Part shown: positions 18,582-43,184 of the stretch, piece after piece
Numbering within the stretch: the first letter of the stretch is position 1
Layout of the letters: the number at the start of each line of letters is the position of its first letter
NCBI GenBank assembly: GCA_024276425.1
Contig: JAJRXF010000175.1
Location: 1-55,448 of the forward strand
Source of the DNA: Actinomycetes bacterium
Lineage (GTDB): Bacteria; Actinomycetota; Acidimicrobiia; Acidimicrobiales; SZUA-35
Reading direction: 5' to 3'
DNA length: 55,448 nt
Notes under the pieces: generated by a model
Told to the model about the DNA's origin: nothing
The model's input: only the letters and a program-made list of their open reading frames with translations
Databases searched by the model: none
Program-made: the position numbers and the translations under genes

Positions 18582-18654
18582 GGAGGAGACCTTCATGTAC
18601 TGGACCGAAATACCGTGCTGATTGTCCGTGGATTTAGTGGACCACACGCGAGTT

Positions 18655-18689
18655 GTTCTGTATGGTGGAACCGTTCTGCGATGTGGAAC
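18655..18689. promoter_or_regulatory. Tandem operator: two 17-bp palindromes with 18-bp spacing
   Basis: Two imperfect palindromes, GTTCTGTATGGTGGAAC (18655-18671) and GTTCTGCGATGTGGAAC (18673-18689), occupy the divergent space between the dimethylglycine oxidase-type gene and fhs. They fit the consensus GTNCYGYANNRYGGAAC, with one mismatch in the second. The same arrangement recurs at 28150-28184 and 35762-35796. Probable binding site of the island's IclR-family regulator. Confidence 0.7.
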
Positions 18690-18770
18690 CCTCAAAAGCT
18701 ACTGGACAAACTCTCCCCTGTCGAGCCTGGCGAGGGAGAACTCACCTTCACTCTAATTCGGAGCCGAGCC

Positions 18771-22268: not shown

Positions 22269-23519
22269 CTAGCCAGCGGCAATAGCAGAAGCAATCCAAC
22301 CGTCGACGAGTTCACGGTTGGAGGCAATCCACTCCGAAGCGAGACCCTGGATGGCCTCATTGGTGTCGGCTCCAGCGGCCTGCTCGACATTGGCCAGAGA
22401 GACGTCGATTACCGATAGCTGGACGGCTTCGAACAGGGCCTTGGCTGCCGGGTTGGCGGCAAGGAAGTCGGCGTTGCCGGTGACCTGGATGTCAGCGGCA
22501 ACCCAGCCAAGACGACACTCACCGTCGGTGGCCGCACCAGGGCAGAACTCCGCATCAATCGCAGCGGTTCCCGGGAGTTGGCTGTAGGACTCGCCCCCCT
22601 CCTCACCCGTGGGGTTGGAATCGTCAATAACATCTTCGACCGAGAGCCATACAACGTTGCTACCGGGGATCAGTTCGGTGATATAGGCGCTTGGTGTCCA
22701 GGTGTAGATGACCATCGGGACATCGGAGTTGGCCTTGTCGATGGCCTCGGCGATCATGGCGTCATAGCCAGCAATGGTCTGGGTGATGTTGTCCCAACCA
22801 GAGAAGGCAATCTGAGCCTGGATGATATTGTCACAGGTCCAGCTCTCGGGACAGCCGTAAATGTCGGCCTTTCCATTGCCAGGCACGGGATCGGCGGCAT
22901 CAAAGGCGGCCAAGATGTCCGGATCGTTGTTGAGCTGGTCCAAATGGGTCAGACCAAACTCATCAGCAAAGGACTTGGTGACCAAGTACCCCTGCAGACC
23001 GCCAGCCATCATCTCGGCTCCAACAACTTCCAAGTTGTCACCAACCTTCGATCCGTCTGGCAGCTCAGGCTCCCACCAACTGGCGTGCCCTGGGTACCAA
23101 CTATTGGCCCAAAAGTCGATGTCGCCTTGGGCCATAGACAAGTAAGCCAACGATGGGCCAAGCTCAAGGTCGGCCGGGTCGGAGACCTCGTAACCGAGTT
23201 CGGTCAACAGTTGCTGGTAGAGGTATGCCTGGAAGTAGCCGGTTGACCAGTCAGCGCGAGCCATTGTCACACTGACGCCCTCGCCCGGGAGAGCTCCTTC
23301 GTCCATGGCGTCGTCTTCCATGGCGTCGTCTTCCATGGCATCGTCTTCCATGGCTGCCATTTCCTCTTCGGACATTGCGTCCTCGGTTGCATCGGCTGCG
23401 GGTGCGGCCGATGTTTCCGTTGCGGTCTCGGCTGCATCCTCGCTGCCACTTCCACAGGCCGCTGCCACCAAGGCAAAGACAACTGCGAGTGCGGCAAACG
23501 CGCGCTTATTGTTCATCAT
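22269..23519 (-). CDS. proX: Glycine betaine/proline-type ABC transporter substrate-binding lipoprotein
   Basis: 416 residues. A lipoprotein signal peptide ends in LVAAAC-G, so Cys22 is the likely lipidated residue. A low-complexity acidic linker (about 36-80, with AMEDD repeats) follows, then an OpuAC-type binding domain with WANSWYPGHASWWEPEL, an aromatic-rich stretch like those that cage trimethylammonium groups. It would deliver betaine, carnitine or choline to ProV/ProW, encoded 1.3 kb away on the opposite strand. ATG 23519 follows GAGGGGAG at about 10 bp. Confidence 0.9.
   Translation of the reverse strand: MMNNKRAFAALAVVFALVAAACGSGSEDAAETATETSAAPAADATEDAMSEEEMAAMEDDAMEDDAMEDDAMDEGALPGEGVSVTMARADWSTGYFQAYLYQQLLTELGYEVSDPADLELGPSLAYLSMAQGDIDFWANSWYPGHASWWEPELPDGSKVGDNLEVVGAEMMAGGLQGYLVTKSFADEFGLTHLDQLNNDPDILAAFDAADPVPGNGKADIYGCPESWTCDNIIQAQIAFSGWDNITQTIAGYDAMIAEAIDKANSDVPMVIYTWTPSAYITELIPGSNVVWLSVEDVIDDSNPTGEEGGESYSQLPGTAAIDAEFCPGAATDGECRLGWVAADIQVTGNADFLAANPAAKALFEAVQLSVIDVSLANVEQAAGADTNEAIQGLASEWIASNRELVDGWIASAIAAG
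23304..23353 (-). repeat. 15-bp tandem repeat coding the acidic linker of ProX
   Basis: Three full copies of a 15-bp unit (minus-strand GAAGACGACGCCATG; the third copy has one base change) plus a partial copy. They encode repeated Met-Glu-Asp-Asp-Ala units between the lipid anchor and the binding domain. The unit is in frame, so copy-number changes would lengthen or shorten the linker without a frameshift. Confidence 0.85.
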
Positions 23520-24798: not shown

Positions 24799-26022
24799 AT
24801 GGCTGAATCTGGCGAAGAAATTATCCGACTCGAAAACGTCTACAAAATTTTTGGGCCTCAGCCCCATGGTCGAGCCTTCGATCTCGCCAAGGCAGGTCTG
24901 AGCAAGAACGAGGTCCAGCGCCTCTCGGACCATGTCGTTGGTCTTCACGACGTCAACTTCACGGTGAACAAGGGTGAAATTTTCGTTGTCATGGGCCTAT
25001 CCGGGTCGGGTAAATCCACCGCAATTCGCATGGTCAACAAACTTCACGAGGTGACCTCAGGCCAGGTTTGGGTCGACGGAGTCGATGTGCAGACCCTGAG
25101 TGGGTCCGACCTCCAAGCCTTTCGTAGGGAGAAGATGGGCATGGTCTTCCAACACTTTGCCCTCTTCCCGCATCGCAACATCATCGACAACGTCGGCTAT
25201 GGCCTCAAGGTTCAGAAAGTTCCAAAGGCCCAACGAGATGTGGCCTCGATGCGAGCCCTGGCCCTCACTGGTTTGGAGGCGTACGCCCACAACGCTCCCA
25301 GCGAACTTTCCGGTGGTATGCAACAGCGAGTCGGCCTCGCTCGAGCCTTGGCCGCTGACCCGGACATCCTGCTGATGGACGAGGCCTTCAGTGCACTCGA
25401 TCCACTGATTCGCCGCCAAATGCAGGACGAGATGATGGAGATTCAAAACGAGCTCCACAAAACCATCCTCTTTATTACCCACGACCTCAACGAGGCGCTG
25501 CGCATTGGCGATCGGGTCTGCATCATGAAGGATGGCCGTGTGGTCCAAATCGGCACACCGGAGGAGATCCTGACCCAACCCGCCACCGGGTACGTGGCCG
25601 AATTCGTACAAGACGTCGACCAAGGACGGGTGATCGAGGTCCAAGAAGTCATGATGGATCCAATGCCTGTGGCCCTCAGTACCTCGATGTCTGACGCCCT
25701 CAACTCGCTTGGGGATCGGGCCGGAACCTTTGTCGTTGATGACAGTGGTCATCCCTCTGGCCTGATCACCAGCGCCGACATCGCCCTAGCACTCAATGTG
25801 GGCTCGACCAACCTGGTCCAAGCAATCCGCACCGATTTCGACCGCACCACTCCAACAGCGACCCTCAACGAGGTCTATGCCGCGGCAGGACGGGGCTTAC
25901 CTATTGCCGTGGTCGACAACTCCGGTGTCCTGGTTGGCAACCTCGATCCGCGCCTCATCATGGAAGAAATGGGTCGGGTTGAACAACTCATAGATGGCTT
26001 CGAGCGAGAGGTGTTCATGTAA
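24799..26022 (+). CDS. proV: Glycine betaine/proline-type ABC transporter ATPase with CBS domains
   Basis: 407 residues. Walker A GLSGSGKST is at 66-74, the signature LSGGMQQ at 170-176 and Walker B ILLMDE at 190-195. The long N-terminal helix before the core (GRAFDLAKAGLSKNEV) is typical of ProV/OpuAA. C-terminal residues of about 280-400 form a CBS pair, which in OpuA-type transporters senses ionic strength or nucleotides. The stop shares a base with the ATG of proW. Divergent from the small hypothetical gene, with a 168-bp promoter region. Confidence 0.94.
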   Translation: MAESGEEIIRLENVYKIFGPQPHGRAFDLAKAGLSKNEVQRLSDHVVGLHDVNFTVNKGEIFVVMGLSGSGKSTAIRMVNKLHEVTSGQVWVDGVDVQTLSGSDLQAFRREKMGMVFQHFALFPHRNIIDNVGYGLKVQKVPKAQRDVASMRALALTGLEAYAHNAPSELSGGMQQRVGLARALAADPDILLMDEAFSALDPLIRRQMQDEMMEIQNELHKTILFITHDLNEALRIGDRVCIMKDGRVVQIGTPEEILTQPATGYVAEFVQDVDQGRVIEVQEVMMDPMPVALSTSMSDALNSLGDRAGTFVVDDSGHPSGLITSADIALALNVGSTNLVQAIRTDFDRTTPTATLNEVYAAAGRGLPIAVVDNSGVLVGNLDPRLIMEEMGRVEQLIDGFEREVFM

Positions 26023-28133
26023 TGGGGGTCTACCAGTTAGCTCAGGAAACATCCAGCCCCGGCTTGTTTGACAACCGGGTACTGGACCAGTTCGAGATCC
26101 CCTTTGGGGCTTGGATTGACCAGTCCGTCGATTGGATCGATACCAAACTGGGGTGGCTCTTAAGCGCCATCGAGTGGCCGTTCTCCGTCCTGTTAAAGCT
26201 GGTGGTGGACGACTTCTTAGTCAAGCTTCCCTGGATCGTGGTGGTACTCGGCTTTTTCGTCCTCGGATCTCTCCTGCGCAACGTCAAGGTTGGAGCCTTT
26301 AGTGCCCTGGCTCTGGCCACGTGCGGGATCCTCGGGAATGCATACTGGATCGAGACGGCCAAGACCATTGGGTTTATCTTTGTCGCTGTTGTTCTCTCGG
26401 TCATTATTGGCGTACCCATCGGGGTGATGTGTGGGCGAGTGGATGCCATCTGGAAGGTGGTCAGACCCATCCTGGATGCTATGCAGGTGGTTCATTCCTT
26501 CGTCTACATGTTGCCGTTCATCTTCTTCTTCGGAATCGGCCCCACCTCGGCCACCATGGTGACGATGGTGTTCGCCCTCCCACCCCTTATCCGACTCACA
26601 AACCTGGGAATTCGCCAGGTTCCCGAGGACGTGGTCGAGGCCAGTCGGGCCTATGGCGCGCCAGAGAGTCGGGTCTTGTTCGATGTTCAGCTTCCGCTGG
26701 CTCGCCCGGCCATCATGACTGGCTTGAATCAGACTCTCCTGCTGGCCATTTCCATGTTAGGAATCGCCGCCATCATGGGAGCCGGTGGTTTGGGCCGCCT
26801 CCTCTTTCGGGCGCTGAGTAACCAGGACGTCAGCCTGGCCACTTCCGGTGGCCTTGCCTTCTTCCTCGTCGCCGTCGTCCTGGACCGGCTCTCCCAACCC
26901 GAGGATGGCGACGGCGGGAGCCTGGGTTCTCGTCTGCGCAGGGCATGGGCCCACCGTCAGGACCCCGAGGTACTGATCCCGGTAGAGAACCCCACGCCCT
27001 TGACCTCCCAGCCAGCGGGACCACGATTCGCCGAGGTTGGGGACGGGGAACAGCAATGGATGATCGTGACCGGCGTCGGTTCGCTCATTGGCATTCTTTC
27101 GGTTTTCCTTCCCTGGGTTAGTGATGCAGCCAAGCTTGGGTCATACGGTCGACGAATCGATGAATCACTCCCCGGTGAGACATTCAATGGGTTGGCAGCA
27201 TCGGGCGGTTCGTTCTTTGGTTACTTTGTCATCGCGTCCAGCCTTTTCATCCTCGGAGCGGTGGTTATGTCACGACGAACGCCTGGTCAAGGGCCCCGCT
27301 GGCTGGCCGCCGATGGGGCCATTATCGCATCACTTTTCATGTTGGCGACCACTCTGGGTTACGTGCTGGCAAGCCAGCCAGATACGGTCAATTCGGTCAC
27401 TAGGTTCGGTGTTTGGGTGGCTCTTGGAGGTTCGCTCATCACCACGGCCGCGTCGGCAATGTGGATCCGGGTCGCTCCCCACACCCCCCTTCATCCACTC
27501 ACTGCGGAGGTGTCCTGGGGCCGTGTACTGGCGGCGGCCGCCGCCGTGGTCGTCCTGGCCATTGGCTCAATCTCTGGCTGGAGTTTTGACTCCCGGGAGG
27601 ACGTGGTCTTTAGCCCCGAACTGCAAGCCCAAATCGATGACCTGAAACAACAGGCGGCAGACGACCCCAGTCAAGCTGGGCCCATCGGGGCCGAACTTTC
27701 CTCCCTGGTGGCCAGCGCCACCAATACCGGTGTCATTATCACCGATGGGGTGAGAAGCAGCGGGACCGGTCTAGGGATTTGGACCCTTGTTTTTGGGGCC
27801 CTCGGTTTAGCCGCCACCGTTCCGGCTTCGGGGGTGCTCGGACGTAACGACCACTCCGAATGGGTCTGGAGCGCGGTAGCCGCAGGTTTGGGACTTGGTA
27901 CCGCAGGCATCGCCGCCGGTTGGATTGCTACCCTGGTCCGCAGCGCTGATCCAAACTATGTGAGTGGTGTCGGGTCCTTTCTCACGTTCCTGGGTGGCAT
28001 GTTCATCGTGGCTGCCGCCGGACCGGTACTCAAGGAGTTCCGTCGAGAACGGGTCTATGACGACCTTCCCTCCATCGACACCATTCTGGATCTGACCGAA
28101 AAGGCCGATTCTCCGGAGTTGATCAGCGGCTAA
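26022..28133 (+). CDS. proW: Glycine betaine transporter permease (ProW) with a large extra C-terminal membrane domain
   Basis: 703 residues, about twice the usual ProW length. Residues 1 to about 295 are a standard ProW/OpuAB permease with the EAA-type loop EDVVEASRAYGAPESRVLFDVQLPLARP. Residues of about 340-690 add roughly eight further hydrophobic segments in two groups, separated by a soluble loop near 520-565, with no family I recognise. The frame is continuous and has no internal start signal I can see. Translationally coupled to proV. The extension could be a regulatory or sensor module, or an assembly partner. Confidence 0.88.
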   Translation: MGVYQLAQETSSPGLFDNRVLDQFEIPFGAWIDQSVDWIDTKLGWLLSAIEWPFSVLLKLVVDDFLVKLPWIVVVLGFFVLGSLLRNVKVGAFSALALATCGILGNAYWIETAKTIGFIFVAVVLSVIIGVPIGVMCGRVDAIWKVVRPILDAMQVVHSFVYMLPFIFFFGIGPTSATMVTMVFALPPLIRLTNLGIRQVPEDVVEASRAYGAPESRVLFDVQLPLARPAIMTGLNQTLLLAISMLGIAAIMGAGGLGRLLFRALSNQDVSLATSGGLAFFLVAVVLDRLSQPEDGDGGSLGSRLRRAWAHRQDPEVLIPVENPTPLTSQPAGPRFAEVGDGEQQWMIVTGVGSLIGILSVFLPWVSDAAKLGSYGRRIDESLPGETFNGLAASGGSFFGYFVIASSLFILGAVVMSRRTPGQGPRWLAADGAIIASLFMLATTLGYVLASQPDTVNSVTRFGVWVALGGSLITTAASAMWIRVAPHTPLHPLTAEVSWGRVLAAAAAVVVLAIGSISGWSFDSREDVVFSPELQAQIDDLKQQAADDPSQAGPIGAELSSLVASATNTGVIITDGVRSSGTGLGIWTLVFGALGLAATVPASGVLGRNDHSEWVWSAVAAGLGLGTAGIAAGWIATLVRSADPNYVSGVGSFLTFLGGMFIVAAAGPVLKEFRRERVYDDLPSIDTILDLTEKADSPELISG

Positions 28134-32493: not shown

Positions 32494-34050
32494 TTAGTAC
32501 AACGCGTCCGGCATCTCCGACTTTCGTTTCCCAACATAGTCCTGGAGTTCAGCATCAATTGCCGCATCAAGGGGTGGTGCCTCATAGTCGGCCAGAAGTT
32601 GTTTCCAGCGGATGTTAGCTCGCTGGGCCGCATCGAGCCTGCCATCTTCTTCCCATTGTTCAAAGCTGTTGTTGTCGGCGATTTTTGATCGATAAAACGC
32701 AGTTTCGAAGTTCTGAAGGGTGTGGTCATTGCCAAGGAAATGTTGCCCGGCCGGATTGGTTCGGAACGCATCCATGGCTTGGCCATTCTCGGACATGTCT
32801 ATCCCCTTCGCGTACACCCCCATCATTCCTAGCTGGTCGGCATCCATGATGAGTTTCTCATATCCGAGACTTAAGCCTCCCTCCAGCCACCCAGCAGCAT
32901 GAAGAACAAAATTCACTCCGGCGTTCACCGTTGGGTGCAAGGTAGAGGCCGACTCATACGCCGCTTGAGCATCGGGAATCTTGGAGGCGGTGAATTGACC
33001 ACCCGAGCGAAAGGGAACCCCCAGGCGTCTGGCCAGGCCAGCCATGACATAGATAGCTTGGCCAGCTTCGGGTGTTCCGAAGGTCGGTGCGCCGGTCGCC
33101 ATGGACATGGAGGAGGCGAAGGTGCCAAAGACCACGGGGGCACCGGGCCGAACCAGTTGATAGTAGGCCATGCCCGATAGGGCTTCGGCCAGAGCCTGTG
33201 CAGCCAGGGCAGCGATCGTTACTGGTGACATTGCCCCGGCCAGAATGAAGGGGGACAGGATCGAGGCTTGGTTGGCCTTGGCGTAGACCGTGGCCGCTCC
33301 CAGCATGGTGGCATCCCACCGCAGAGGGGAGGATGCATTAATCAATGAGGTCATGACCGTGCGGTCTTGCAGGTCCCCACCAAAGGCAATCCGCGATAGC
33401 TCAACCGAATCGATTGCTCGCTCGGTGGCCGTAACCGAACCCATGTAACCCTTGTCGGAATACTTGATGTGGGAGTACACCATGTCCAGGTGCCGCTTGT
33501 TGACAGGAACATCAACTGGCTCACAAACCGTGCCACCCGAATGATGGAGATGGGGCAAGGAGTAGGTCAGCTTCACCACGTTCCGGAAGTCTTCCAGGGT
33601 GGCATAACGTCGCCCTCGATCAAGATCCATCACAAACGGGGAACCATAGTTGGGAGCAAAAACGGTGCTGTTATCCCCGATCTTGACGTTGTGTGCTGGG
33701 TTCCTCGCGTGCTGGATGAAGCTCTGCGGGGCGTTCGCCTGGACAATTCTGCGGCACATCCCCTTGGGGAAGTGAACCACCTCGCCGCGCACCTCCGCAC
33801 CGGCCTCGCGCCATAAATCCAGCGCCGATGGAAAGCCCTGAAAGGCAACACCAACCTCTTCCAGGATTATCTCGGCGTTCGTTTCGATCTGGGCATAGCC
33901 TGCCTCGTCCAACATGTCAACGGCGGGCAGGGTGCGCTCAAGATAGGCCACCGATTGCTCGGTGGAAGATACGCGGGCGGCCTGGCGCCCGCGACGACCT
34001 CCAGAGCGTCGGCGACGAGGTTTGGCCGGTGTTTGATCGGGTCTAGTCAC
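32494..34050 (-). CDS. mtgB: MttB-family methyltransferase without pyrrolysine, probable glycine betaine:corrinoid methyltransferase
   Basis: 518 residues from GTG 34050, preceded by AAGGAG. A basic N-terminus is followed by the trimethylamine-methyltransferase-like TIM barrel (NYGSPFVMDLDRGRRYATLEDF, FGTPEAGQAIY, VNAGVNFVLHAAGWLEGG). The frame has no in-frame amber, so the pyrrolysine of archaeal MttB is absent; characterised non-Pyl members demethylate glycine betaine, carnitine or related compounds. With the adjacent methyl-THF:corrinoid methyltransferase and corrinoid protein it forms a complete demethylation set. Glycine betaine is inferred from the neighbourhood. Confidence 0.84.
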   Translation of the reverse strand: MTRPDQTPAKPRRRRSGGRRGRQAARVSSTEQSVAYLERTLPAVDMLDEAGYAQIETNAEIILEEVGVAFQGFPSALDLWREAGAEVRGEVVHFPKGMCRRIVQANAPQSFIQHARNPAHNVKIGDNSTVFAPNYGSPFVMDLDRGRRYATLEDFRNVVKLTYSLPHLHHSGGTVCEPVDVPVNKRHLDMVYSHIKYSDKGYMGSVTATERAIDSVELSRIAFGGDLQDRTVMTSLINASSPLRWDATMLGAATVYAKANQASILSPFILAGAMSPVTIAALAAQALAEALSGMAYYQLVRPGAPVVFGTFASSMSMATGAPTFGTPEAGQAIYVMAGLARRLGVPFRSGGQFTASKIPDAQAAYESASTLHPTVNAGVNFVLHAAGWLEGGLSLGYEKLIMDADQLGMMGVYAKGIDMSENGQAMDAFRTNPAGQHFLGNDHTLQNFETAFYRSKIADNNSFEQWEEDGRLDAAQRANIRWKQLLADYEAPPLDAAIDAELQDYVGKRKSEMPDALY

Positions 34051-34071: not shown

Positions 34072-34968
34072 CTACTCTGCTCGCTTGCGGCGCCGACCAC
34101 TACGCGCTCGGCCTCCGGTTGTGTTCGGATCTCGAAACTCGCTGATCCACGCCGAACAATTCGCATCGGTGCCCATCAAGACGTTGGCGGCCATGACCGC
34201 AGTCTTTGCCTCGGCATGGAGGGGATTCATGATGGCCGAGGTCATCCCCGAACCAATGGCCATGGCCAGGAAGCTGCCGGTGATGTTGTGGCGATTGGGT
34301 AGTCCGAAACTGACATTGGAGGCGCCACAGGTGGTGTTGACACCAAGCTCATCACGGAGCCGGCCCACCAGGGTAAAGACCTGCCGGCCAGCGGTGGCCA
34401 TGGCCCCAATGGGCATGACCAAAGGATCGACAACCACATCAGAGGTTGGGATGCCGTGATCGTTGGCCCGCTGAATAATCCGCTTGGCAACTTCGAAACG
34501 AACATCTGGGTCTTCCGATATTCCGGTGTCGTCGTTGGAGACAGCGACAACGGCGGCACCGTGTTTGGCCACGAAGGGGAGGACCCGTTCCATTACCTCT
34601 TCCTCTCCGGTAACGGAGTTCACTAACGGTTTGCCTTCATAAACGGAGATTCCGGCTTCGAGGGCTTCGATGATGGATGAGTCGATCGAAAGGGGAACGT
34701 CGGTCACCGATTGGACCAACTTGATGGCCTTTGCCAACAATGCCGGCTCATCCGCGAGGGGAATTCCGGCGTTGATGTCCAACATGTGGGCGCCAGCGGC
34801 CACCTGCGATAACGCATCGGCCTCGACCCTACTGAAGTCGCCATTCTTCATCTCCTGGGCGAGAAGCTTTCGCCCGGTCGGGTTAATGCGCTCACCGATC
34901 ATGACGAAGGGCTGGTCGAAGCCAATCACTACTTCCTTGGTGGCTGAGCTGAGAACTGTGTGGGTCAT
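34072..34968 (-). CDS. mtgA: Methyltetrahydrofolate:corrinoid methyltransferase (pterin-binding)
   Basis: 298 residues from ATG 34968, which directly follows the stop of the corrinoid-protein gene. The pterin-binding barrel shows FVMIGERINPTGRK, HMLDINAGIP, PLSIDSS and NVSFGLPNRHNI, matching AcsE/MtgA/MtvA-type methyltransferases. It would move the methyl group from the methyl-corrinoid to THF, making 5-methyl-THF for the MetF-like enzyme. A Lys/Arg-rich C-terminal tail (RARSGRRRKRAE) is unusual and echoed by the basic N-terminus of the MttB-type partner. Confidence 0.86.
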   Translation of the reverse strand: MTHTVLSSATKEVVIGFDQPFVMIGERINPTGRKLLAQEMKNGDFSRVEADALSQVAAGAHMLDINAGIPLADEPALLAKAIKLVQSVTDVPLSIDSSIIEALEAGISVYEGKPLVNSVTGEEEVMERVLPFVAKHGAAVVAVSNDDTGISEDPDVRFEVAKRIIQRANDHGIPTSDVVVDPLVMPIGAMATAGRQVFTLVGRLRDELGVNTTCGASNVSFGLPNRHNITGSFLAMAIGSGMTSAIMNPLHAEAKTAVMAANVLMGTDANCSAWISEFRDPNTTGGRARSGRRRKRAE

Positions 34969-34969
34969 A

Positions 34970-35704
34970 TCAGGCTGCATTTCGTCGTTCGGCGATGAGT
35001 TCGGTTGCCATGGATGCGGCAATTGCTGCGTCTCGGCAGTAACCGTCGGCCCCGATGGCTTCCCCAAACTCTTCGTTCAGTGGGGCTCCGCCGACAAGCA
35101 CGATGTAGTCATCGCGCATACCACGTTCGCGGAGGGTATCGATAACAACCTTCATATAGGGCATGGTGGTGGTCAGCAAGGCCGAGAGACCAAGAATATC
35201 GGGCTTGTGTTTCTCCAGAGCCTCGATGTACTCATCCACATCGGTATTGATACCAAGATCAACAACTTCGAACCCGGCACCTTCCATCATCATGGCCACC
35301 AGGTTCTTGCCAATATCGTGAATGTCTCCTTTGACGGTGCCAATGACGACAGTACCGATTGGTTCTGCTCCGGTTTCGGCGAGCAGGGGACGCAGGATCG
35401 CCATGCCTGCCTTCATGGAGTTAGCCGACAACAGCACCTCGGGAACAAAAAGAATGCCGTCACGAAAATCGATGCCGACAATACGCATGCCTTCGACCAA
35501 CACGTCGCCGAGAACCTTCTCGGCGTCCCAACCCCGAGACAACAAAATTTTGGTCCCCTCCGCGATTTCCTCCGCCAGCCCGTCATAGAGGTCATCCATC
35601 ATCTGAGTTCGGAGGTCGGCATCATCCAGAGTGGTCAAGTCAACTTCTTCGTCCTCAAACTCATCCCCGTCTTCAACAGCACCCGTACTCAACTCGTCGG
35701 CCAT
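34970..35704 (-). CDS. mtgC: Corrinoid (B12-binding) protein of the methyltransferase system
   Basis: 244 residues from ATG 35704, with a G-rich ribosome-binding stretch and an alternative GTG 12 bases earlier. An acidic N-terminal extension (about 1-30) precedes a helical cap domain and a Rossmann B12 domain with the cobalt-ligating motif Asp127-x-His129-x-x-Gly132 (GDIHDIG). It shuttles the methyl group between the MttB-type and MtgA-type enzymes. It is the first gene of the operon mtgC-mtgA-mtgB-betA and lies just downstream of a tandem operator. No reductive activator (RamA-like) gene is in the window. Confidence 0.9.
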   Translation of the reverse strand: MADELSTGAVEDGDEFEDEEVDLTTLDDADLRTQMMDDLYDGLAEEIAEGTKILLSRGWDAEKVLGDVLVEGMRIVGIDFRDGILFVPEVLLSANSMKAGMAILRPLLAETGAEPIGTVVIGTVKGDIHDIGKNLVAMMMEGAGFEVVDLGINTDVDEYIEALEKHKPDILGLSALLTTTMPYMKVVIDTLRERGMRDDYIVLVGGAPLNEEFGEAIGADGYCRDAAIAASMATELIAERRNAA

Positions 35705-35761
35705 CGACACCCCCACTTACCGAAACCAGCCCTCCAGCTCAGAAGAGAAGAGAGCCGATCT

Positions 35762-35826: not shown

Positions 35827-36810
35827 TCATGACCGGTCTCTATCCAACTGCTCTTGGCGAGTGCGCTGTTTGGCTAGCAAGTCTCCGGCTCCCCAGCGAC
35901 GGTCTTCTAATGCCAGGAGGATGGCCGCTAGATTGTCGTCTCGGATGCGCTCCAACTCTCTAATCGTGTACTGGCCGGACTGTTCATCTGACTGATCGGC
36001 AATGCGGTCAATCAACTCATCACTCAGTTCGGGGACGTCGGTCAATCTGGTCCACGGCCAGTTGAGGGCCTCCCCAAACTGGGCAATAAAGTGACGCATA
36101 CCGGCCTCGCCACCAGCCACTCGGTACGTCTCATACAAGCCCATTTGAGCCCAACGCAAACCAAACCCAAACCGAATGGCGTCATCGATCTCCTCGGTTG
36201 TAGCCACTCCATCGTTGACAAGCCACAATGCCTCTCGCCACACTGCCTCCAACAGACGGTCGGCAATAAAGGCGTCAATCTCGACTCGGACGTGGAGGGG
36301 TTTCATACCAACAGATTCGTACAGCCTCAGGGCTGAGCAGATCGATTCCGGTGACGTTTGCTGGCCTCCGACAACCTCGACCAAGGGGAGCAGATAGACC
36401 GGGTTGAAGGGATGACCAACCACGAGGCGCTGGGGATGTTCCAGCCTGGCCTGCAAATCGGTCGGCTTGAAGCCCGAGGTTGAGGACAAGATCAAGGCCT
36501 CTGGCGATGCCTCTTCCTCGATCTCGGCCAGGACCAAACGTTTCGTTTCCAACCGCTCCGGAACACATTCCTGAACAAAATTGGCGCCAGACACCGCTTC
36601 GGCCACTGAGCCGACCAGTCGCACCTGCCCCTGCCGGCCGGTATCCAGACCAAGGATGTCCCAAGCCCGCGTGGCATTGGCGTGAACCTCGCCCAGTATC
36701 CGCTCGGCTTCGGGTGCCGGGTCGCTGACCCAGACATTAAACCCACTGAGGGCAAAGCGAGAGGCCCAACCACTGCCGATGACCCCACAACCAACAACCG
36801 CCACTCTCAT
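35827..36810 (-). CDS. lcdH: L-carnitine 3-dehydrogenase (3-hydroxyacyl-CoA dehydrogenase family)
   Basis: 327 residues. An N-terminal NAD-binding Rossmann motif GCGVIGSGWA (8-17), then GHPFNPVYLLPLVEVVGG, and the C-terminal GFGLRWAQMGLYETYRVAGG typical of carnitine dehydrogenases. It oxidises L-carnitine to 3-dehydrocarnitine with NAD. Its ATG overlaps the stop of the BKACE gene that acts next in the pathway. Last gene of the Rieske-GS-BKACE-lcdH operon. The gene symbol follows family usage; cdhA is the Pseudomonas name. Confidence 0.86.
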   Translation of the reverse strand: MRVAVVGCGVIGSGWASRFALSGFNVWVSDPAPEAERILGEVHANATRAWDILGLDTGRQGQVRLVGSVAEAVSGANFVQECVPERLETKRLVLAEIEEEASPEALILSSTSGFKPTDLQARLEHPQRLVVGHPFNPVYLLPLVEVVGGQQTSPESICSALRLYESVGMKPLHVRVEIDAFIADRLLEAVWREALWLVNDGVATTEEIDDAIRFGFGLRWAQMGLYETYRVAGGEAGMRHFIAQFGEALNWPWTRLTDVPELSDELIDRIADQSDEQSGQYTIRELERIRDDNLAAILLALEDRRWGAGDLLAKQRTRQEQLDRDRS

Positions 36811-37715
36811 CAGTCGGGCCCTTGAAGCTGGAGCTGGTCTCGAACCTCACCGGGCCCCAGGATCGCCACATTCATACCTTCCAGGATGGCGACCGCTCGA
36901 CGAACCAGTTCCTCGTTGCTAGCCAGCGTTCCCCTTCCCAGGTAGAGGTTGTCCTCCAACCCAACCCGAACATTCCCCCCCGCGAGGGCCGCAGCGGCCA
37001 CATATGGCAACTGTTTGCGACCAATGGAAAAAGCCGAAAACGTCCAGCTTTCGGGAACGTTGTTGACAAAGGCCAGGAGGGAGTTGAGGTCGTTTCCTGC
37101 CCCCCACGGAACACCCATACACAGTTGAACCATCACCGGATCGTCGATCAGTCCCTGCTCAACCAAAGACCGGGCGAACATCATGTGACCAAGATCAAAC
37201 AGTTCGAGCTCGGGACGAACACCAAGATCCTGAACCAGCCTGGCCATGGCCTTGAGGGTGGAGGGCGAGTTAACCATGATGTAGTCGCCTTCACCAAAGT
37301 TCATGGTTCCACAATCCAGGGTGCAAATCTCCGGGCGGAGTTCGGCCACATGTTCCAGCCGCTCGCTTGCGCCAGCCATGTCCGTGCCGGTCTCATCCAA
37401 CGGAATGGGGAGCTCGGCCGAACCAAGCGTTAGGTCTCCTCCCATGCCTGCGGTCAGGTTGATTACCACGTCGGTGCTATCGGCTCGAATACGTTCCACT
37501 ACCTCCTGGTAGTAGTCAAGCTTGCGCGACGGCTCACCACTGAGCGGATCGCGCACATGGATGTGAACAATGGCAGCCCCAGCCTTTGCTGCGGCAATAC
37601 AATCACGGGCGATTGCGGCTGGGGTGACCGGAACCTTGTCGGACTTGTTGGTGGTGTCTCCACTTCCAGTAACCGCACAGGTTATGAAAACGCGATCGCT
37701 CATCAGGCGAGTCAT
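36810..37715 (-). CDS. Beta-keto acid cleavage enzyme (BKACE/DUF849), probable dehydrocarnitine:acetyl-CoA cleavage (CdhC-like)
   Basis: 301 residues, TIM barrel of the DUF849 family. Zn-ligand and active-site signatures are visible: ITCAVTGSGDT, VHIHVRDP (His-x-His), ICTLDCGTMNFGEGDYI, ELELFDLGHM and VRVGLEDNLYLGRG. The family condenses a beta-keto acid with acetyl-CoA. CdhC members take 3-dehydrocarnitine and give acetoacetate plus betainyl-CoA. Immediate coupling to the carnitine dehydrogenase gene supports this role. ATG 37715 follows AAGGAAG. The betainyl-CoA thioesterase (CdhB) is not visible here. Confidence 0.85.
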   Translation of the reverse strand: MTRLMSDRVFITCAVTGSGDTTNKSDKVPVTPAAIARDCIAAAKAGAAIVHIHVRDPLSGEPSRKLDYYQEVVERIRADSTDVVINLTAGMGGDLTLGSAELPIPLDETGTDMAGASERLEHVAELRPEICTLDCGTMNFGEGDYIMVNSPSTLKAMARLVQDLGVRPELELFDLGHMMFARSLVEQGLIDDPVMVQLCMGVPWGAGNDLNSLLAFVNNVPESWTFSAFSIGRKQLPYVAAAALAGGNVRVGLEDNLYLGRGTLASNEELVRRAVAILEGMNVAILGPGEVRDQLQLQGPD

Positions 37716-37742: not shown

Positions 37743-39158
37743 CTAGAAAAGACTGAAATACTCCTGGTGCTCCCAATCGGTAACGGCCGCTTGGAAGCGG
37801 TTGATCTCGAACCGCTTGATAGCCACTAGGTAGTCGACAAATCGGTGGCCTAACGCCTCACGATAAAAAGCACTGCTGTCAAGTTCGTTCACCGCCTCGG
37901 ACAGGCTGGCCGGCAGGCCCGGGACACGGTCACTGTAGGGTTCATTCGTTGGTGGGGGCGGCTCAAGTTTTCGCGCCATACCGTCCAGACCACAAAGAAT
38001 CTGCGAAGCAAGAAAGAGGTAGGGATTGGCTGCCGGTTCGCCAGCCCGGTTTTCGATTCGTGATGCCTCATCACCCACACCGCCCAGTACGCGAAGCATG
38101 GCCCCACGATTGTCGCGGCCCCACGAGAGACGATCCGGAGCAAGGGTGTTGGGATGGAATCTCTTGTAACCGTTGATAGTTGGGGTGGAAAACACGCAGG
38201 AGGCTCCGGCATGCTCAAGCAGTCCGCCAACATAGTGCCGCCCGGCCTCCGATAGGAGTTGCTCATCCTCGGAGGGAGCAAACACATTTCCGCCGCTTCG
38301 GGGGTCGACCAAGGACTGGTGAAGATGCCAGCCGTTGGACATGACGTTGGGCAGCCCAGGTCGACACATGAAGGTGGCGTGGTAGCCATGACGACGACAG
38401 ATCTGGCGGACTGCAGAGCGCAAAGTCACAAGGTCATCCGCAGCCTCAAGGGCACCGCTTACCCCAAAGGTGAGTTCGCATTGGGACGGGCCGAACTCTA
38501 CCTCCATTGAACGAAGTGGTAGTCCAAGTCCCGAGAGGTGGCGGTGCAACTCCTGATAGATGTCATCCCATTGATCCAGAACCGAGTCGGTCAGGTACTG
38601 ATAGCCAAGTGTCACTGGGTTAACGGCGGGAGGACAATTTGGCTGTGTGGCGTCGGCAAAGCTGGGGGTTTGAGGCATTTGCAGTTTGAAGATCGAGAAC
38701 TCAATTTCCAAACCACACCGGAACTCCAAGCCCACCCCCTCCAGTTTGACCAGAGCTTGGCGAAGCACGTTGCGGGTATCGAAGAGATTTGGGGCGCCAT
38801 CGGGGTCGACTAGGTCACAAAGAATCGACGCCGTTCGTTCGGCCCAGGGCAACACCCGAAAAGTTGAAAGATCGGGCATCATGACCACGTTGGCCGCGCC
38901 CGAGAACTCATCCATCTCCAAACCGGCTCCCCGCTGCCACACGGGAAATGCAGTGCGGTGGGAGGTATCTTTGAGTAGGAGCGAGGATGGCATGGTGCAG
39001 CCTCGCTCGACCACCGCTTGCAGTTCGTGCGCGACCAAGGCTTTACCCCGAAGCACCCCATGCTGATCGGCAAAGTTGAATCGAATCAGCTCGATCTGAT
39101 GCTTGGCGATCTGGTCCTTCACCGTGGCCAGAAGGTCTTGATTGGTGGATTGGCTCAC
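37743..39158 (-). CDS. Glutamine synthetase-like ligase (probable gamma-glutamyl-amide synthetase)
   Basis: 471 residues with beta-grasp and catalytic domains of the GS fold: FNFADQHGVLRGKA, GLEIEFSIF, SMEVEFGPSQCELTF, NGWHLHQSL and SRIENRAGEPAANPY. It lacks the consensus of biosynthetic GlnA and looks like the catabolic group that joins glutamate to amines (PuuA, GmaS, IpuC or aniline TdnQ types). It overlaps the Rieske oxygenase gene by four bases, an association known from amine-oxidising systems. The substrate may be an amine released from betaine or carnitine, but this is inference. Confidence 0.8.
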   Translation of the reverse strand: MSQSTNQDLLATVKDQIAKHQIELIRFNFADQHGVLRGKALVAHELQAVVERGCTMPSSLLLKDTSHRTAFPVWQRGAGLEMDEFSGAANVVMMPDLSTFRVLPWAERTASILCDLVDPDGAPNLFDTRNVLRQALVKLEGVGLEFRCGLEIEFSIFKLQMPQTPSFADATQPNCPPAVNPVTLGYQYLTDSVLDQWDDIYQELHRHLSGLGLPLRSMEVEFGPSQCELTFGVSGALEAADDLVTLRSAVRQICRRHGYHATFMCRPGLPNVMSNGWHLHQSLVDPRSGGNVFAPSEDEQLLSEAGRHYVGGLLEHAGASCVFSTPTINGYKRFHPNTLAPDRLSWGRDNRGAMLRVLGGVGDEASRIENRAGEPAANPYLFLASQILCGLDGMARKLEPPPPTNEPYSDRVPGLPASLSEAVNELDSSAFYREALGHRFVDYLVAIKRFEINRFQAAVTDWEHQEYFSLF

Positions 39159-40510
39159 TCCGAATGGCTCGCTGAACTACCTGGGGTGGCTAGGTCGCGA
39201 TCCCCCAGCGACCAGGGGGCCCGCTCGCGTCGTTGTTTCTCCCACCCAATCCAGTCATCGGCCCAGGAGTCGGGGTGGCCAAAAGCGTCGGTTGCCGCGG
39301 GGCCAATAATGGTGGCCGACTCCGCCTCGGAGTAGCGCAAGGGCGGGCTTTCCCCGTTGTCTAGCGCAGCCATGCCCGCCTCGAACAGTCGGCGAAACTG
39401 AACGATGCCGATGTCAAGTTTGGACAGGTGTTCCTTGGTTCGGTCCGCGATAGGTCCCAGAGACTCGACCGCCCACTGGTCATGAACATTGATGTCATAG
39501 CCCATGCCGGTGTAGACCTCGGTGGCCTGCTGCGCGGGGTCGAAGCCGTAGTTGTTGGACTTGTTCAGCTTTGACCGGTAGCTGGGCAATTCGATTTGGG
39601 CCACCCGCTGTTCTCGCATAGTTTCGCGGTCAACCTCATCGGTGAAGCTGGTGAAAATAGCATACCAATAGGTCGTGGTGTCGTTGATGGGGACGTGCCA
39701 TTGGGTAATGACCATGTCCCGACTCATGGGAATTGTAATGGCGTTGGGAAAGACACAGTTGGTGACCCGAACATGCAACTGGTCGTCGCTGATCTGTCGC
39801 AGGGTGATCAGGCGCAGTCCAAAATCGGTCTTGTCGACCTTGATTGATGGCCGCGGATAGTCCCGGAGCAGGCGGGTGATGGGAATGTCAGAATCGGCCG
39901 CCTTGTCGCGGAACTGCTTACCGTACTGCTCGTCGGGGTCTTCGTCGATGAAGAACCGATGCAAGAACGACGCATGGCTGGGATCGATGCCGACCTCCAT
40001 GGCCTGCATCCAGTTGCATTCCAGCAGCCCCTTGAAGGCAAAGGTGTGAGACTCGGGTGCGGCGAAGGCATCGAGGGAGGGAACCGGAGGCGGTTCTCCC
40101 TCGCCCAGGTAGGCGAACACAATCCCGTTGCGTTCGACACAGGGATAAGCCTTCTGGGACACATTAAGGTGGAACTTCGAACCGACCGGTTCAGCCCCCT
40201 GTTCGATGCACCGACCATCGGCGTCGAAAAGCCAGCCATGGAAGGTGCAACGCAACCCACCACCTTCAAGCCGACCAAAACACAGGTCGGCCCCACGATG
40301 GGTGCAGTGACGCTCCATCAGGCCATAGCGGCCGAACTCGTCTCGGAACAAAACTAACTCTTCACCCAGCAGGGTCACCGCAATCACCGGGCGGCTTTGC
40401 TCCAACTCCTCGACCAGCGCGGCGGGCTGCCAATAGCTGCGCAACAGGGCACCGCCTGAGGTCCCGGCACCGGTTTGTGTCAAGCGATTGTTCTGTTCCT
40501 GAGTGACCAT
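39155..40510 (-). CDS. Rieske non-heme iron oxygenase, catalytic subunit
   Basis: 451 residues. The Rieske cluster motif is Cys69-x-His71-x16-Cys88-x2-His91. The catalytic domain has GIDPSHASFLH, giving bridging Asp176 and iron ligands His179 and His184. The overall pattern resembles phthalate-4,5-dioxygenase-type alpha subunits. The bridging residue is Asp, unlike the Glu of carnitine monooxygenase CntA, so CntA identity is unlikely. No reductase or ferredoxin partner is adjacent. First gene of the operon running to lcdH; its promoter carries two TGGTACGTACCA palindromes. Confidence 0.84.
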   Translation of the reverse strand: MVTQEQNNRLTQTGAGTSGGALLRSYWQPAALVEELEQSRPVIAVTLLGEELVLFRDEFGRYGLMERHCTHRGADLCFGRLEGGGLRCTFHGWLFDADGRCIEQGAEPVGSKFHLNVSQKAYPCVERNGIVFAYLGEGEPPPVPSLDAFAAPESHTFAFKGLLECNWMQAMEVGIDPSHASFLHRFFIDEDPDEQYGKQFRDKAADSDIPITRLLRDYPRPSIKVDKTDFGLRLITLRQISDDQLHVRVTNCVFPNAITIPMSRDMVITQWHVPINDTTTYWYAIFTSFTDEVDRETMREQRVAQIELPSYRSKLNKSNNYGFDPAQQATEVYTGMGYDINVHDQWAVESLGPIADRTKEHLSKLDIGIVQFRRLFEAGMAALDNGESPPLRYSEAESATIIGPAATDAFGHPDSWADDWIGWEKQRRERAPWSLGDRDLATPGSSASHSE

Positions 40511-40620: not shown

Positions 40621-40632
40621 TGGTACGTACCA
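40621..40632. promoter_or_regulatory. GntR-type palindromic operator, copy 1
   Basis: Perfect 12-bp palindrome TGGTACGTACCA in the 192-bp divergent promoter between the Rieske and oxygenase operons. It fits the GT...AC half-site pattern of GntR-family operators. The GntR/UTRA regulator encoded at 42363 is the likely binder. Confidence 0.7.
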
Positions 40633-40702: not shown

Positions 40703-41803
40703 ATGTTGATTACCGACATCACCCACAATGCCAGCTGGCTCAACCTCCAGTTTTCAAACGGGTCACAGGCGAGCTATTTGGCGAGCTGGCTGCGAGACAA
40801 TGTCGCCGTTGGCCGCCACCAATCTGGCGGCCAAAGAACCTTTGACATCAACCTCATCGACCCAGTAACCATTTCGGGTGCCAACCTGGAGCAGGGACAG
40901 GTCAAGGTCAACTTCGATGGGCACGAACCGTTCTTTTTTGACCCCTACTGGCTCAGCAAATTTTCTCAGCGCGAGATCCCCGGAGCCGTGCCCGGTGGAC
41001 GTCCCCCGATCCACTGGGGGTCCGAAATGCAAAGCCAGCTTCCCTGGTTTGACTACCAGGACGCTCGGACCAACCAGGGCGTTCTCGCTGACCTCTTGGA
41101 AAGCGTGCTCATCAAGGGCTTCGTCCTCTTGGACCGAGTTCCCTCTGTCCCCGAGACAGTTCTTGACGTGGTTGATTTGTTCGGCTTCGTTCGCGTCACC
41201 AACTATGGGGCCCTCTTTGACGTTCGCGTCAAGCCCAACCCGGCCAACCTCGCGTTCACCAGCCAGACCATTGGCATGCACACTGACAACCCGTATCGAG
41301 ATCCCGTTCCGGGATTGCAACTTCTGCACTGCCTCATCAACGACTCCGACGGGGGCGAGAACCAACTGGTCGACGGATTCGCTGTGGCCAGCCAAATGCA
41401 GAGTGCTCACCCCGATGCCTTTCAGATGTTGCTGAACACTCCAGTCGAGTTCCGCTACTTTGAACCAGGATTAGCTGACCTGTGCCATCGAACTCCGTTG
41501 ATCACGGTCCGGGATGGCCTCATCACCGAAGTTCGTTACAACGCTCGCTCCATCCAGACCATTGACGTTTCGGCTACGGAGATGGCCAGCTTCTATGAGG
41601 CCTATCGCATCTTTGGCCAGGCCCTCCACAACGATTCCGCCAAAGTCGAATTTCGGTTGGAACCCGGCCAGATGATGATTTTCGACAACCAGCGGGTGCT
41701 TCACGGTCGCTCCTCCTACGGGGAGGGCGAACGTCACTTGCAAGGCTGCTATGCCGACAAGGACTCGCTTCGCTCCACCTTGCGACTAATGGGTCGATCA
41801 TGA
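40703..41803 (+). CDS. Gamma-butyrobetaine-hydroxylase-like Fe(II)/2-oxoglutarate oxygenase, TmpA-like candidate
   Basis: 366 residues from ATG 40703, with GGAG eight bases upstream. An N-terminal DUF971-like domain (1 to about 95) precedes the double-stranded beta-helix TauD/BBOX domain with Fe ligands His193-x-Asp195 and His334 (GMHTDNPYRDPVPGLQ; FDNQRVLHGRSSYGEG). The Cys-x-Cys-x-x-Cys zinc site that human and many bacterial BBOX proteins have after WLRDN is missing (here VAVGRH). It is coupled by a four-base overlap to a PhnZ/TmpB-like HD oxygenase, exactly the pairing of TmpA-TmpB, which convert 2-(trimethylammonio)ethylphosphonate to glycine betaine. The carnitine-forming BBOX reaction remains possible because carnitine genes lie on the opposite strand. 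Confidence 0.8.
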   Translation: MLITDITHNASWLNLQFSNGSQASYLASWLRDNVAVGRHQSGGQRTFDINLIDPVTISGANLEQGQVKVNFDGHEPFFFDPYWLSKFSQREIPGAVPGGRPPIHWGSEMQSQLPWFDYQDARTNQGVLADLLESVLIKGFVLLDRVPSVPETVLDVVDLFGFVRVTNYGALFDVRVKPNPANLAFTSQTIGMHTDNPYRDPVPGLQLLHCLINDSDGGENQLVDGFAVASQMQSAHPDAFQMLLNTPVEFRYFEPGLADLCHRTPLITVRDGLITEVRYNARSIQTIDVSATEMASFYEAYRIFGQALHNDSAKVEFRLEPGQMMIFDNQRVLHGRSSYGEGERHLQGCYADKDSLRSTLRLMGRS

Positions 41804-42366
41804 TGTCGGTGGTTGAGGAACTACGAACCCTGATGGAGGGCCGAGGGACCCAAGCCTATGGAGAACGAATCACCATCGCCGAACACTGCCTGCTCACCGC
41901 TCTTGCTGCTCAATCCGCAGGTGAGCCAGACACCATGATCCTGGCCTGCCTCCTGCATGATGTTGGCCACTGGCTCGACGAACCAGACGATGAGTTTGGT
42001 ATTTACTCCCACGCCGAACAGGGTGGCCGCTGGGTGGCCCAACGGTTTGGGCCATCAATAAGTGAACCGGTCAGACTCCACGTGGAAGCAAAACGCTACC
42101 TCTGTTCGCTCGACCCGGACTATCACCGTCGACTATCTCCCGCATCGGTCCACACCCTGGACCGCCAGGGTGGTCCAATGAGTAGACCCGAAACTTTCGC
42201 CTTCGCCAACACTGCCTTCCATCATGAAGCCACGGTGCTGCGGCGCCTGGAGGACGACCATGGGAAGAAGATTGGAGCCCCCGTCCCGGATCTCGATCGG
42301 TTTGCCCCCCTCCTGATGGAACTGACGATTGGTGCGGCCAAGACGACCGGATCGCACGATCTATGA
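41800..42366 (+). CDS. HD-domain mixed-valent diiron oxygenase, PhnZ/TmpB-like
   Basis: 188 residues. HD-type metal ligands are His29, His53-Asp54, His71, His94 and Asp152 (or Asp153), with spacing close to PhnZ (34, 58-59, 80, 104, 161). YGE precedes the first His by 7-9 residues, in the segment where PhnZ/TmpB carry their gating Tyr and Glu. HVEAKRYL and the Ser-rich SPASVHTLDRQGGPM segment are also the PhnZ/TmpB pattern rather than that of nucleotide hydrolases. These enzymes cleave the C-P bond of a 1-hydroxyphosphonate oxidatively. Overlaps both neighbours by four bases, so it is tightly coupled to the upstream oxygenase and the GntR gene. Confidence 0.78.
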   Translation: MMSVVEELRTLMEGRGTQAYGERITIAEHCLLTALAAQSAGEPDTMILACLLHDVGHWLDEPDDEFGIYSHAEQGGRWVAQRFGPSISEPVRLHVEAKRYLCSLDPDYHRRLSPASVHTLDRQGGPMSRPETFAFANTAFHHEATVLRRLEDDHGKKIGAPVPDLDRFAPLLMELTIGAAKTTGSHDL

Positions 42367-43184
42367 ATCCGAGTCCAGAACCTAGTGCCCGGGAGCCACT
42401 CTATGCCCAGATAGCTCAGCGGCTTGAAGTCGAGATCGAAACTGGGGTACTACAACCGGGGCAACGAGTTGGCTCCGAACGGTCACTCTCCCAACGGTTC
42501 AATGTCAACCGCCAGACCATTCGAGGAGCGCTGGAGGTATTGACGCTGCGCGGCATGCTACACAAGCAACCCGGGGTCGGAGCAGTAGTGTGCCCGCCGC
42601 GCCTGGAACGGGGAGCATCAGAGTTCTTCCACTTCACCGACCGAACCCACCAACAGGGGCAACGCCCCGGAGCAAAAGTGCTCTCGATCGAAACGGTCAA
42701 GCCATCACCCCAACTACAAGCCGATCTTGACTTGGCCACCGCATCCATGGTTCAGCGCATCCGTCGGGTTCGGACGCTCGATCAGGTCCCGGTCTTGCTG
42801 GAAACTTTCGAGATCTCCGACGACCTTGTTCCCGGACTGAGACGTTTCGACCTGGAACGACGCTCCTTCTATGAGGTTCTGCGTACCGAGTTTGATCTTT
42901 GGGTCGACCATTCGGATCAGAGTTTGGAGGCCGTGGCCTTGAACAAAGACGAGGGCCAGCTTTTGGGGCTGAAAGCCGGAGCCCCCGCCATGCTAGAGCG
43001 GCGTAGATCCTTCAGCCGGGACGGCCGCCCCATCGAATCAGGCACCGACTTGTATCGTGGCGACAGGGTCCGATTCATGACCACCTCAGCCACAATTGCC
43101 CTCGACCTCGTTGGCCATATCCGCGACGGATCACTGCCCCAGCCGCTGTCATTGGACGGACCGGCCCAAACCTTCGATAGTTAA
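42363..43184 (+). CDS. GntR-family regulator with UTRA domain (HutC/PhnF subgroup)
   Basis: 273 residues. The N-terminal winged HTH (LAQR..VEIETGVLQPGQRVGSERSLSQRFNVNRQTIRGAL region) is followed by a UTRA ligand-binding domain. HutC-subgroup members often control histidine, phosphonate or amine operons locally. It is coupled to the HD oxygenase gene and probably represses its own operon and the divergent Rieske operon through the TGGTACGTACCA palindromes at 40621 and 40655. Confidence 0.88.
   Translation: MNPSPEPSAREPLYAQIAQRLEVEIETGVLQPGQRVGSERSLSQRFNVNRQTIRGALEVLTLRGMLHKQPGVGAVVCPPRLERGASEFFHFTDRTHQQGQRPGAKVLSIETVKPSPQLQADLDLATASMVQRIRRVRTLDQVPVLLETFEISDDLVPGLRRFDLERRSFYEVLRTEFDLWVDHSDQSLEAVALNKDEGQLLGLKAGAPAMLERRRSFSRDGRPIESGTDLYRGDRVRFMTTSATIALDLVGHIRDGSLPQPLSLDGPAQTFDS

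Follow-up and report, generated by a model that had tools for sequence, protein, structure and literature searches.

The window, the 55,448-nucleotide stretch analysed here, is the entire contig C158 of a 3.95-Mb genome, 96.1% complete, of an uncultured actinobacterium. It contains a three-gene cassette on the forward strand, preceded by two copies of a short palindrome:

40621..40632, no strand: putative operator copy 1, TGGTACGTACCA, which with copy 2 is the sole exact match in the genome
40655..40666, no strand: putative operator copy 2, TGGTACGTACCA, at the centre of a 20-bp near-palindrome
40703..41803, + strand: OxyA, TmpA-like Fe(II)/2-oxoglutarate oxygenase, 366 aa (PDB, NCBIfam, tree)
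41800..42366, + strand: HD protein, TmpB/PhnZ-type diiron oxygenase, 188 aa (PDB, TIGR03276, fold, tree)
42363..43184, + strand: GntR/UTRA regulator of the HutC subfamily, third gene of the cassette (PF00392 and PF07702)

The longest open reading frame for oxyA begins at 40475; the ATG at 40703, located just 3' of the operator pair, was chosen as the start and gives a protein near the length of its relatives. As originally predicted, a TauD-family Fe/2OG oxygenase (PF02668, 146.2 bits) overlaps an HD gene (PF01966, 28 bits) by four bases, ATGA, and a HutC/PhnF-type GntR gene follows, itself overlapping the HD gene by four bases.

Chemistry of the TmpA–TmpB type is known from a marine alphaproteobacterium. 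Among solved structures, TmpA (PDB entry 6npb) is the best sequence match of OxyA, with an E value of 7.1e-70, compared to 1.6e-41 for human BBOX (PDB entry 4bg1) and 1.4e-29 for DfmD. OxyA scores 355.8 bits on the NCBIfam TmpA model NF049936, under the cut-off of 400, and 304.8 bits on the BBOX model TIGR02409, under both the cut-off of 414.75 and its own TmpA score, while the trimethyllysine dioxygenase model gives 172.7 bits (cut-off 268.3). Oxygenases of the same clade fall on either side of the 400-bit TmpA cut-off: L037 passes with 420.5, L034 fails with 366.2. Sequence identity is 34–35% to TmpA in the Foldseek alignment and 38% to three plasmid-borne TmpA relatives. The predicted model of OxyA is of moderate confidence (pLDDT 75.4), with loops 177–188 and 200–204 below pLDDT 50. 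In a fold search with this model, TmpA came out on top (E 8.3e-34) and BBOX second (8.1e-30), a gap that appears modest and would by itself be indecisive.

In TmpA, the phosphonate is contacted by Asn187, Asn287 and Arg288, according to PMC9296572. Asn187 and Arg288 are kept in OxyA as N182 and R282, while Asn287 is replaced by A281. Across 47 aligned rows, the Arg288 column is Arg in all 37 HD-paired oxygenases and in none of the ten others, and the segment HTDNPY is distributed in the same way (37/37 and 0/10). Asn187 is less discriminating, with Asn in 36 of the 37 HD-paired rows (Asp in L097) and also in six of the ten others. The Asn287 column is variable among the HD-paired rows (Asn 16, Ser 15, His 3, Pro 2 and Ala 1, the last being the window); the 16 rows of the OxyA clade comprise 15 Ser and the window Ala. 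At the columns of TmpA Tyr173, Phe177 and Tyr190, which from BBOX work we take to be the aromatic cage positions, OxyA has Y168, F172 and F185. Aromatic residues for the trimethyl group are a common property of these enzymes according to PMC9296572. The L097 oxygenase also contains Arg288 and HTDNPY, but in its HD partner AKRYL and QGGPM are missing, and the alignment of that partner to the window HD protein spans just 56 residues; being of another type, this partner means that the two signatures mark HD-paired oxygenases and not strictly phosphonate enzymes.

The HD protein is closest to TmpB (PDB entry 6npa, E 4.2e-31), with PhnZ next (5.7e-20). It scores 133.8 bits on the TmpB model NF049941 (cut-off 300), 170.7 on TIGR03276 (cut-off 214.6) and 114.1 on the Gimesia-type model NF052439 (cut-off 300). 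Its predicted model has a pLDDT of 89.9, and all ten fold matches at E<=0.001 are TmpB or PhnZ chains. A phosphohydrolase reading of the protein was set aside on grounds of fold, as the predicted model matched zero hydrolase structures at this threshold. As first described, the protein has the ligands H29, H53, D54, H71, H94 and D152 together with the segments AKRYL and QGGPM; H57 is kept as well. None of the ligands varies across the 20 rows of an alignment with relatives. According to PMC8177086 and PMC11203657, HD oxygenases of the TmpB/TIGR03276 type have an H...HD...H...H...D motif plus a fifth His; read from the HDxGH column, H57 would be this fifth His. The residues common to TmpB and PhnZ are also kept (K98, R99, S113, S116, Q123, R148 and K156). 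A YxxE loop is a feature of TmpB and PhnZ according to PMC8177086; the loop of the window protein is YxE (Y20-G-E22), one residue short, and YxxE occurs in only 8 of 70 family rows.

In the oxygenase tree (47 rows), the HD-paired oxygenases form a 38-row group together with TmpA and L087, with support of 99/97. Outside this group are human BBOX, plasmid enzymes without an HD partner, a Sulfitobacter enzyme adjoining carnitine genes and a C115 paralogue from the window's own genome; OxyA is thus not nested in BBOX. OxyA belongs to a 16-row Acidimicrobiales clade (100/100), located outside the TmpA subclade and sister to TmpA plus a second clade of the same order, although this last support (81/83) is not strong. 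The tree is flagged for two long rows joining each other, L087 and L097. It left out 23 of 67 rows: 21 second copies from genomes already represented, L016 (cut by a contig end) and L048 (truncated). L087 (G000:C195:6144-7190) is a paralogue from the same genome as the window that has no HD gene; its matched stretch contains an in-frame TAG, and in the tree it forms a long branch within the HD-paired group. In the HD tree (66 rows), the HD proteins with TmpA-like partners and TmpB form a 39-row group (98/90) with PhnZ outside; the window protein, with its diiron residues, lies in this group, as do L010 and L059, for which no partner was detected. The HD alignment skipped 21 second-copy loci, and the tree dropped four more, three second copies and L048. 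The L097 HD protein was unmatched and hence absent from the tree. The HD-paired label of L045, L082 and L097 was assigned manually; a Phn-HD-type frame was confirmed behind L045 and L082 but not L097. The second Acidimicrobiales clade (L061–L065) attaches differently in the two trees. The family placement in the original prediction of a TmpA–TmpB pathway therefore stands, on the trees and on the best solved matches, and neither of the refuting outcomes named with it for the sequences, an oxygenase within BBOX or an HD protein short of diiron residues, came about. The substrate in that prediction is a putative one: both proteins score under the TmpA and TmpB cut-offs, Asn287 is replaced by Ala and the loop is shorter.

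Beyond the window, the close clade comprises 17 genomes (L034–L048, G214 with L058 and G277 with L059). The oxygenase gene lies 5' of the HD gene in 16 of these 17 (one, L048, is truncated), a pairing that exceeds chance. In the stretch fetched for L059 no oxygenase was found; its close-clade HD gene (L059:9300-10497) adjoins a gene for a LysE-type exporter. A gntR gene follows the pair in five of the 17 relatives (L034, L035, L041, L047 and L048). In a phylum-wide sample of 396 genomes, the only close-clade member was in the window's own genome, and 397 genomes sampled from the order yielded 14 with a match at E<=1e-45, of which nine are close-clade (own genome included) and five second-clade. 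In the second clade (L061–L065) the HD gene precedes the oxygenase gene, the two being fused in L062 (563 aa), and an MttB-family gene is found about 4.5–4.7 kb away in all five loci, with 42–44% identity to the window's MttB. Histidine-utilisation genes adjoin the pair in two of the 17 relatives, with the order HutH-FGase-OxyA-HD-GntR in L035 (L035:3-4624) and HutU-deformylase-like-HutF-HutI-OxyA-HD in L037 (L037:1-8825). A phosphonate transporter suspected from gene sizes beside the pair in L042 and L044 proved to be an SDR-SDR-LLM oxidoreductase series. Plasmid-borne pairs are annotated as 'TauD/TfdA family dioxygenase' or 'gamma-butyrobetaine dioxygenase' plus 'HD domain-containing protein', which is close to the automated labels that had been anticipated.

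The two TGGTACGTACCA palindromes begin 82 and 48 bp upstream of the oxyA start. The pattern TGGTN4ACCA, picked after inspection of the window, was found in the 120 bp before oxyA in 7 of the 16 loci examined, where 0.03 would be expected with uniform base use. It is present in all five examined loci with a GntR gene (the window, L034, L035, L041 and L047) and also in L040 and L046, which are close relatives with no adjacent GntR. In the nine loci where it is absent, a weaker form, GGTGTANACC, is found in four. In L035 the putative operators sit between the hut gene and oxyA. PMC4494728 gives, as a rule for operators of the HutC subfamily, four nucleotides between GT and AC; the putative operators match this spacing and lie near their own operon. 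An oxyA–HD–gntR cassette with a palindromic putative operator is a frequent arrangement of the pair in Acidimicrobiales.

Upstream of the cassette, the window encodes a set of proteins of betaine and carnitine metabolism, in line with the surroundings first proposed:

39155..40510, - strand: divergent Rieske oxygenase with a LigXa-like C-terminal domain; context, outside the cassette
37743..39158, - strand: glutamine-synthetase-like ligase; context
36810..37715, - strand: BKACE beta-keto acid cleavage enzyme (319.6 bits), presumably cleaving 3-dehydrocarnitine
35827..36810, - strand: carnitine 3-dehydrogenase-like protein (PRK07531, 511.6 bits, cut-off 592)
34970..35716, - strand: corrinoid protein, MtgC-like (NF047996, 209.6 bits, cut-off 370)
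34072..35067, - strand: methyltetrahydrofolate:corrinoid methyltransferase, start codon uncertain (PRK07535, 355.7 bits, over the cut-off of 259)
32494..34050, - strand: MttB-family methyltransferase (PF06253, 728.6 bits), probably for glycine-betaine demethylation
24799..26022 and 26022..28133, + strand: ABC ATPase and permease, near the OpuAC-type protein
22269..23519, - strand: OpuAC-type glycine-betaine-binding protein; context
16062..18695, - strand: DAO/FAO_M/GCV_T protein, dimethylglycine- or sarcosine-dehydrogenase-like; context

A formate–THF ligase is also encoded in the neighbourhood of the pair, and the gene set fits the use of glycine betaine. No recognised phosphonate gene, transporter included, adjoins the pair in the window. 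Elsewhere in the genome, a PhnD-type binding protein is encoded on contig C2 (162.5 bits, over the cut-off of 112.05), with ABC-ATPase- and permease-like reading frames beside it, judged by eye. A search of the genome for C-P lyase gave no PhnJ match, the E. coli control being positive.

The genome G001, of the same genus, separates the cassette from the carnitine genes. Its carnitine operon keeps the window's gene order of carnitine dehydrogenase, BKACE, GS-like ligase and Rieske oxygenase, interrupted by an MFS gene and followed by one for an isochorismatase, and its Rieske protein is 80% identical to that of the window, yet no cassette lies beside this operon; the 3.2-kb gap between the Rieske and isochorismatase genes contains IclR- and AraC-type regulators in its stead. 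The G001 cassette sits on a separate contig, C125, accompanied by a TGGTN4ACCA site of its own, and in 20 kb around it, where most reading frames are unannotated, no betaine enzyme was recognised by similarity to the window proteins. The cassette is therefore modular, and its placement beside betaine genes is lineage-specific: the betaine genes on which the neighbour-based argument of the original prediction drew are present, but their proximity is suggestive and not conserved. The G001 Rieske gene has no TGGTN4ACCA in front of it, so that the putative operator sites travel with the cassette; co-regulation of the Rieske operon by these operators, an appealing idea from the window by itself, was set aside on the same observation. 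The pattern has a single match in L131, elsewhere than upstream of the Rieske gene.

Fusions and unusual pairs were also encountered. In related genomes, single chains of about 680–990 aa, some of them truncated where a contig or locus stops, join a type I phosphodiesterase domain (PF01663) to Phn-HD and TmpA-like parts (L014:682-3018, L018, L023, L027, L030, L033, L009, L071 and L109–L120). The phosphodiesterase domain of these fusions was matched in 16 of 198 related genomes and not in the window's own; in all 12 loci returned, HTDNPY and HDxGH are in the same frame as the phosphodiesterase. Such a fusion is possibly a one-chain enzyme for phosphonate esters. Near the fusion in L092 are genes for an adenosine deaminase and a drug-type ABC ATPase. 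A Labrenzia plasmid (L081:5820-8403) has TmpA-like, HD and 'alkaline phosphatase family' (PF01663) proteins encoded by three neighbouring genes, the last only distantly related to the fused phosphodiesterase (24% identity, E 4e-8). On a Pseudomonas aeruginosa plasmid (L097:4920-10877), the TmpA-like gene and the HD gene of another type adjoin genes for choline transport, choline dehydrogenase and aldehyde dehydrogenase, and could be a related pair whose substrate differs. On a Rhodococcus plasmid (L083:6117-7513), a Phn-HD-type gene adjoins a gene of the phytanoyl-CoA-dioxygenase family, not a TmpA-like one.

On what was observed here, namely the order of the genes, their family placement, the metal ligands, the two signatures Arg288 and HTDNPY, the recurring putative operator and the modular nature of the cassette, we consider it probable that the pair is a divergent actinobacterial TmpA–TmpB system acting on a trimethylammonium phosphonate and yielding phosphate and glycine betaine. 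OxyA would hydroxylate carbon 1 of the phosphonate, most likely 2-(trimethylammonio)ethylphosphonate, and the HD diiron oxygenase would, with O2, split the resulting (R)-hydroxy compound at its C-P bond into phosphate and glycine betaine. The GntR/HutC-type protein would probably repress the operon at the two TGGTACGTACCA palindromes until an effector binds, and the glycine betaine would feed the MttB, MtgC and methyl-THF proteins encoded nearby and the dimethylglycine enzymes. Both reactions, the substrate, the repression and the downstream flow are modelled on TmpA and TmpB and on general knowledge. The L097 pair near choline genes had been counted as support and was withdrawn; its HD partner being of another type, the weight given to this reading was lowered slightly.

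Of the alternatives, the one that survives best, although we regard it as unlikely, keeps the chemistry and changes the substrate to another amino- or alkylphosphonate (mono- or dimethyl-aminoethylphosphonate or 2-aminoethylphosphonate), which would yield sarcosine, dimethylglycine or glycine. It is consistent with Ser or Ala at the Asn287 column in 16 of 16 clade rows, with the sub-cut-off scores of both proteins, with a clade separate from the characterised TmpA subclade and with PhnZ homologues of differing substrates (PMC10574752), while the conserved aromatics Y168, F172 and F185 and the surrounding genes suit fully methylated betaines. A non-phosphonate betaine as the substrate of the pair, for instance a trimethylated histidine derivative, seems very improbable: hut genes adjoin the pair in L035 and L037, and the signature-bearing L097, near choline genes, has an HD partner without PhnZ/TmpB-type residues, but the window HD protein keeps the residues common to TmpB and PhnZ, the L037 oxygenase is above the TmpA cut-off, the L035 operators separate the hut gene from oxyA, and the stretches mapped for the remaining 15 relatives gave no hut match. 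The reading of OxyA as a gamma-butyrobetaine dioxygenase feeding the carnitine dehydrogenase and BKACE, with the HD protein an unrelated phosphohydrolase, draws on those two genes at 3–5 kb, on the Sulfitobacter BBOX-type enzyme near carnitine genes and on the TIGR02409 score, but as the main reading it is rejected on the tree, the HMM scores and the signature residues, and is highly unlikely given also that oxygenase and HD stay paired in 16 of 17 relatives, that their mapped stretches (some just 4–6 kb) have no carnitine-dehydrogenase- or BKACE-like gene and that the G001 carnitine operon has no adjacent pair.

Set beside the characterised systems, the window pair resembles TmpA–TmpB of Leisingera caerulea (PDB entries 6npb/6npc and 6npa) in combining an oxygenase with an HD protein, in fold and metal ligands, in the Asn187 and Arg288 contacts, in the segment HTDNPYRDP and in falling in the same tree groups. 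It differs in the replacement of Asn287 by Ala, the YxE loop and the GntR cassette with its palindromic putative operator; the TmpA-type plasmid loci L080 and L081 have instead a LysR gene directly upstream, and L079 a LysR gene further off. PhnY*-PhnZ, acting on AEP, and the Gimesia PhnY*-PhnZ, acting on methylphosphonate, share with the window pair the ligands and the logic of an HD diiron C-P oxygenase, but PhnZ falls outside the 39-row group and the Gimesia-type score is below its cut-off. BBOX is similar to OxyA in overall fold and in sequence across almost the full length, but is without Arg288 and HTDNPY and outside the HD-paired group. DfmD, of dehydrofosmidomycin biosynthesis, has the same substrate as TmpA (PMC9296572); it is a distant relative of OxyA, far in the tree and also without Arg288 and HTDNPY. 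PhoF, a fungal PhnY-PhnZ fusion described in PMC10574752, is a precedent for the fusion of oxygenase and HD protein, to which the fusions in relatives of the window, not the window itself, add the type I phosphodiesterase domain.

No report of an actinobacterial TmpA–TmpB pair was found among titles and abstract beginnings of the open-licence literature, nor an open-licence paper combining Acidimicrobi*, phosphonate and PhnZ. The chemistry itself is already known; what is new here is most likely a distinct actinobacterial branch with its own putative regulatory switch. As a tentative further possibility, the Acidimicrobiales oxyA–HD–gntR cassette could represent, within oxidative C-P cleavage, a specificity class of its own, with Ser or Ala at Asn287, and a mobile self-regulated unit that has here landed in a corrinoid/folate betaine locus, in which case one locus could make phosphate, methyl-folate and glycine from a choline-like phosphonate. 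For annotation, Arg288 and HTDNPY provide two residue signatures that separate HD-paired from BBOX-type oxygenases, where adjoining carnitine genes could mislead, and the cassette offers a predicted inducible switch that is open to direct testing. If the TmpA–TmpB reading is true, the oxidative cleavage of trimethylated phosphonates reaches beyond the Alphaproteobacteria to a distinct branch of the Acidimicrobiales, which appears to include a Candidatus Microthrix genome and apparent ocean metagenome bins.
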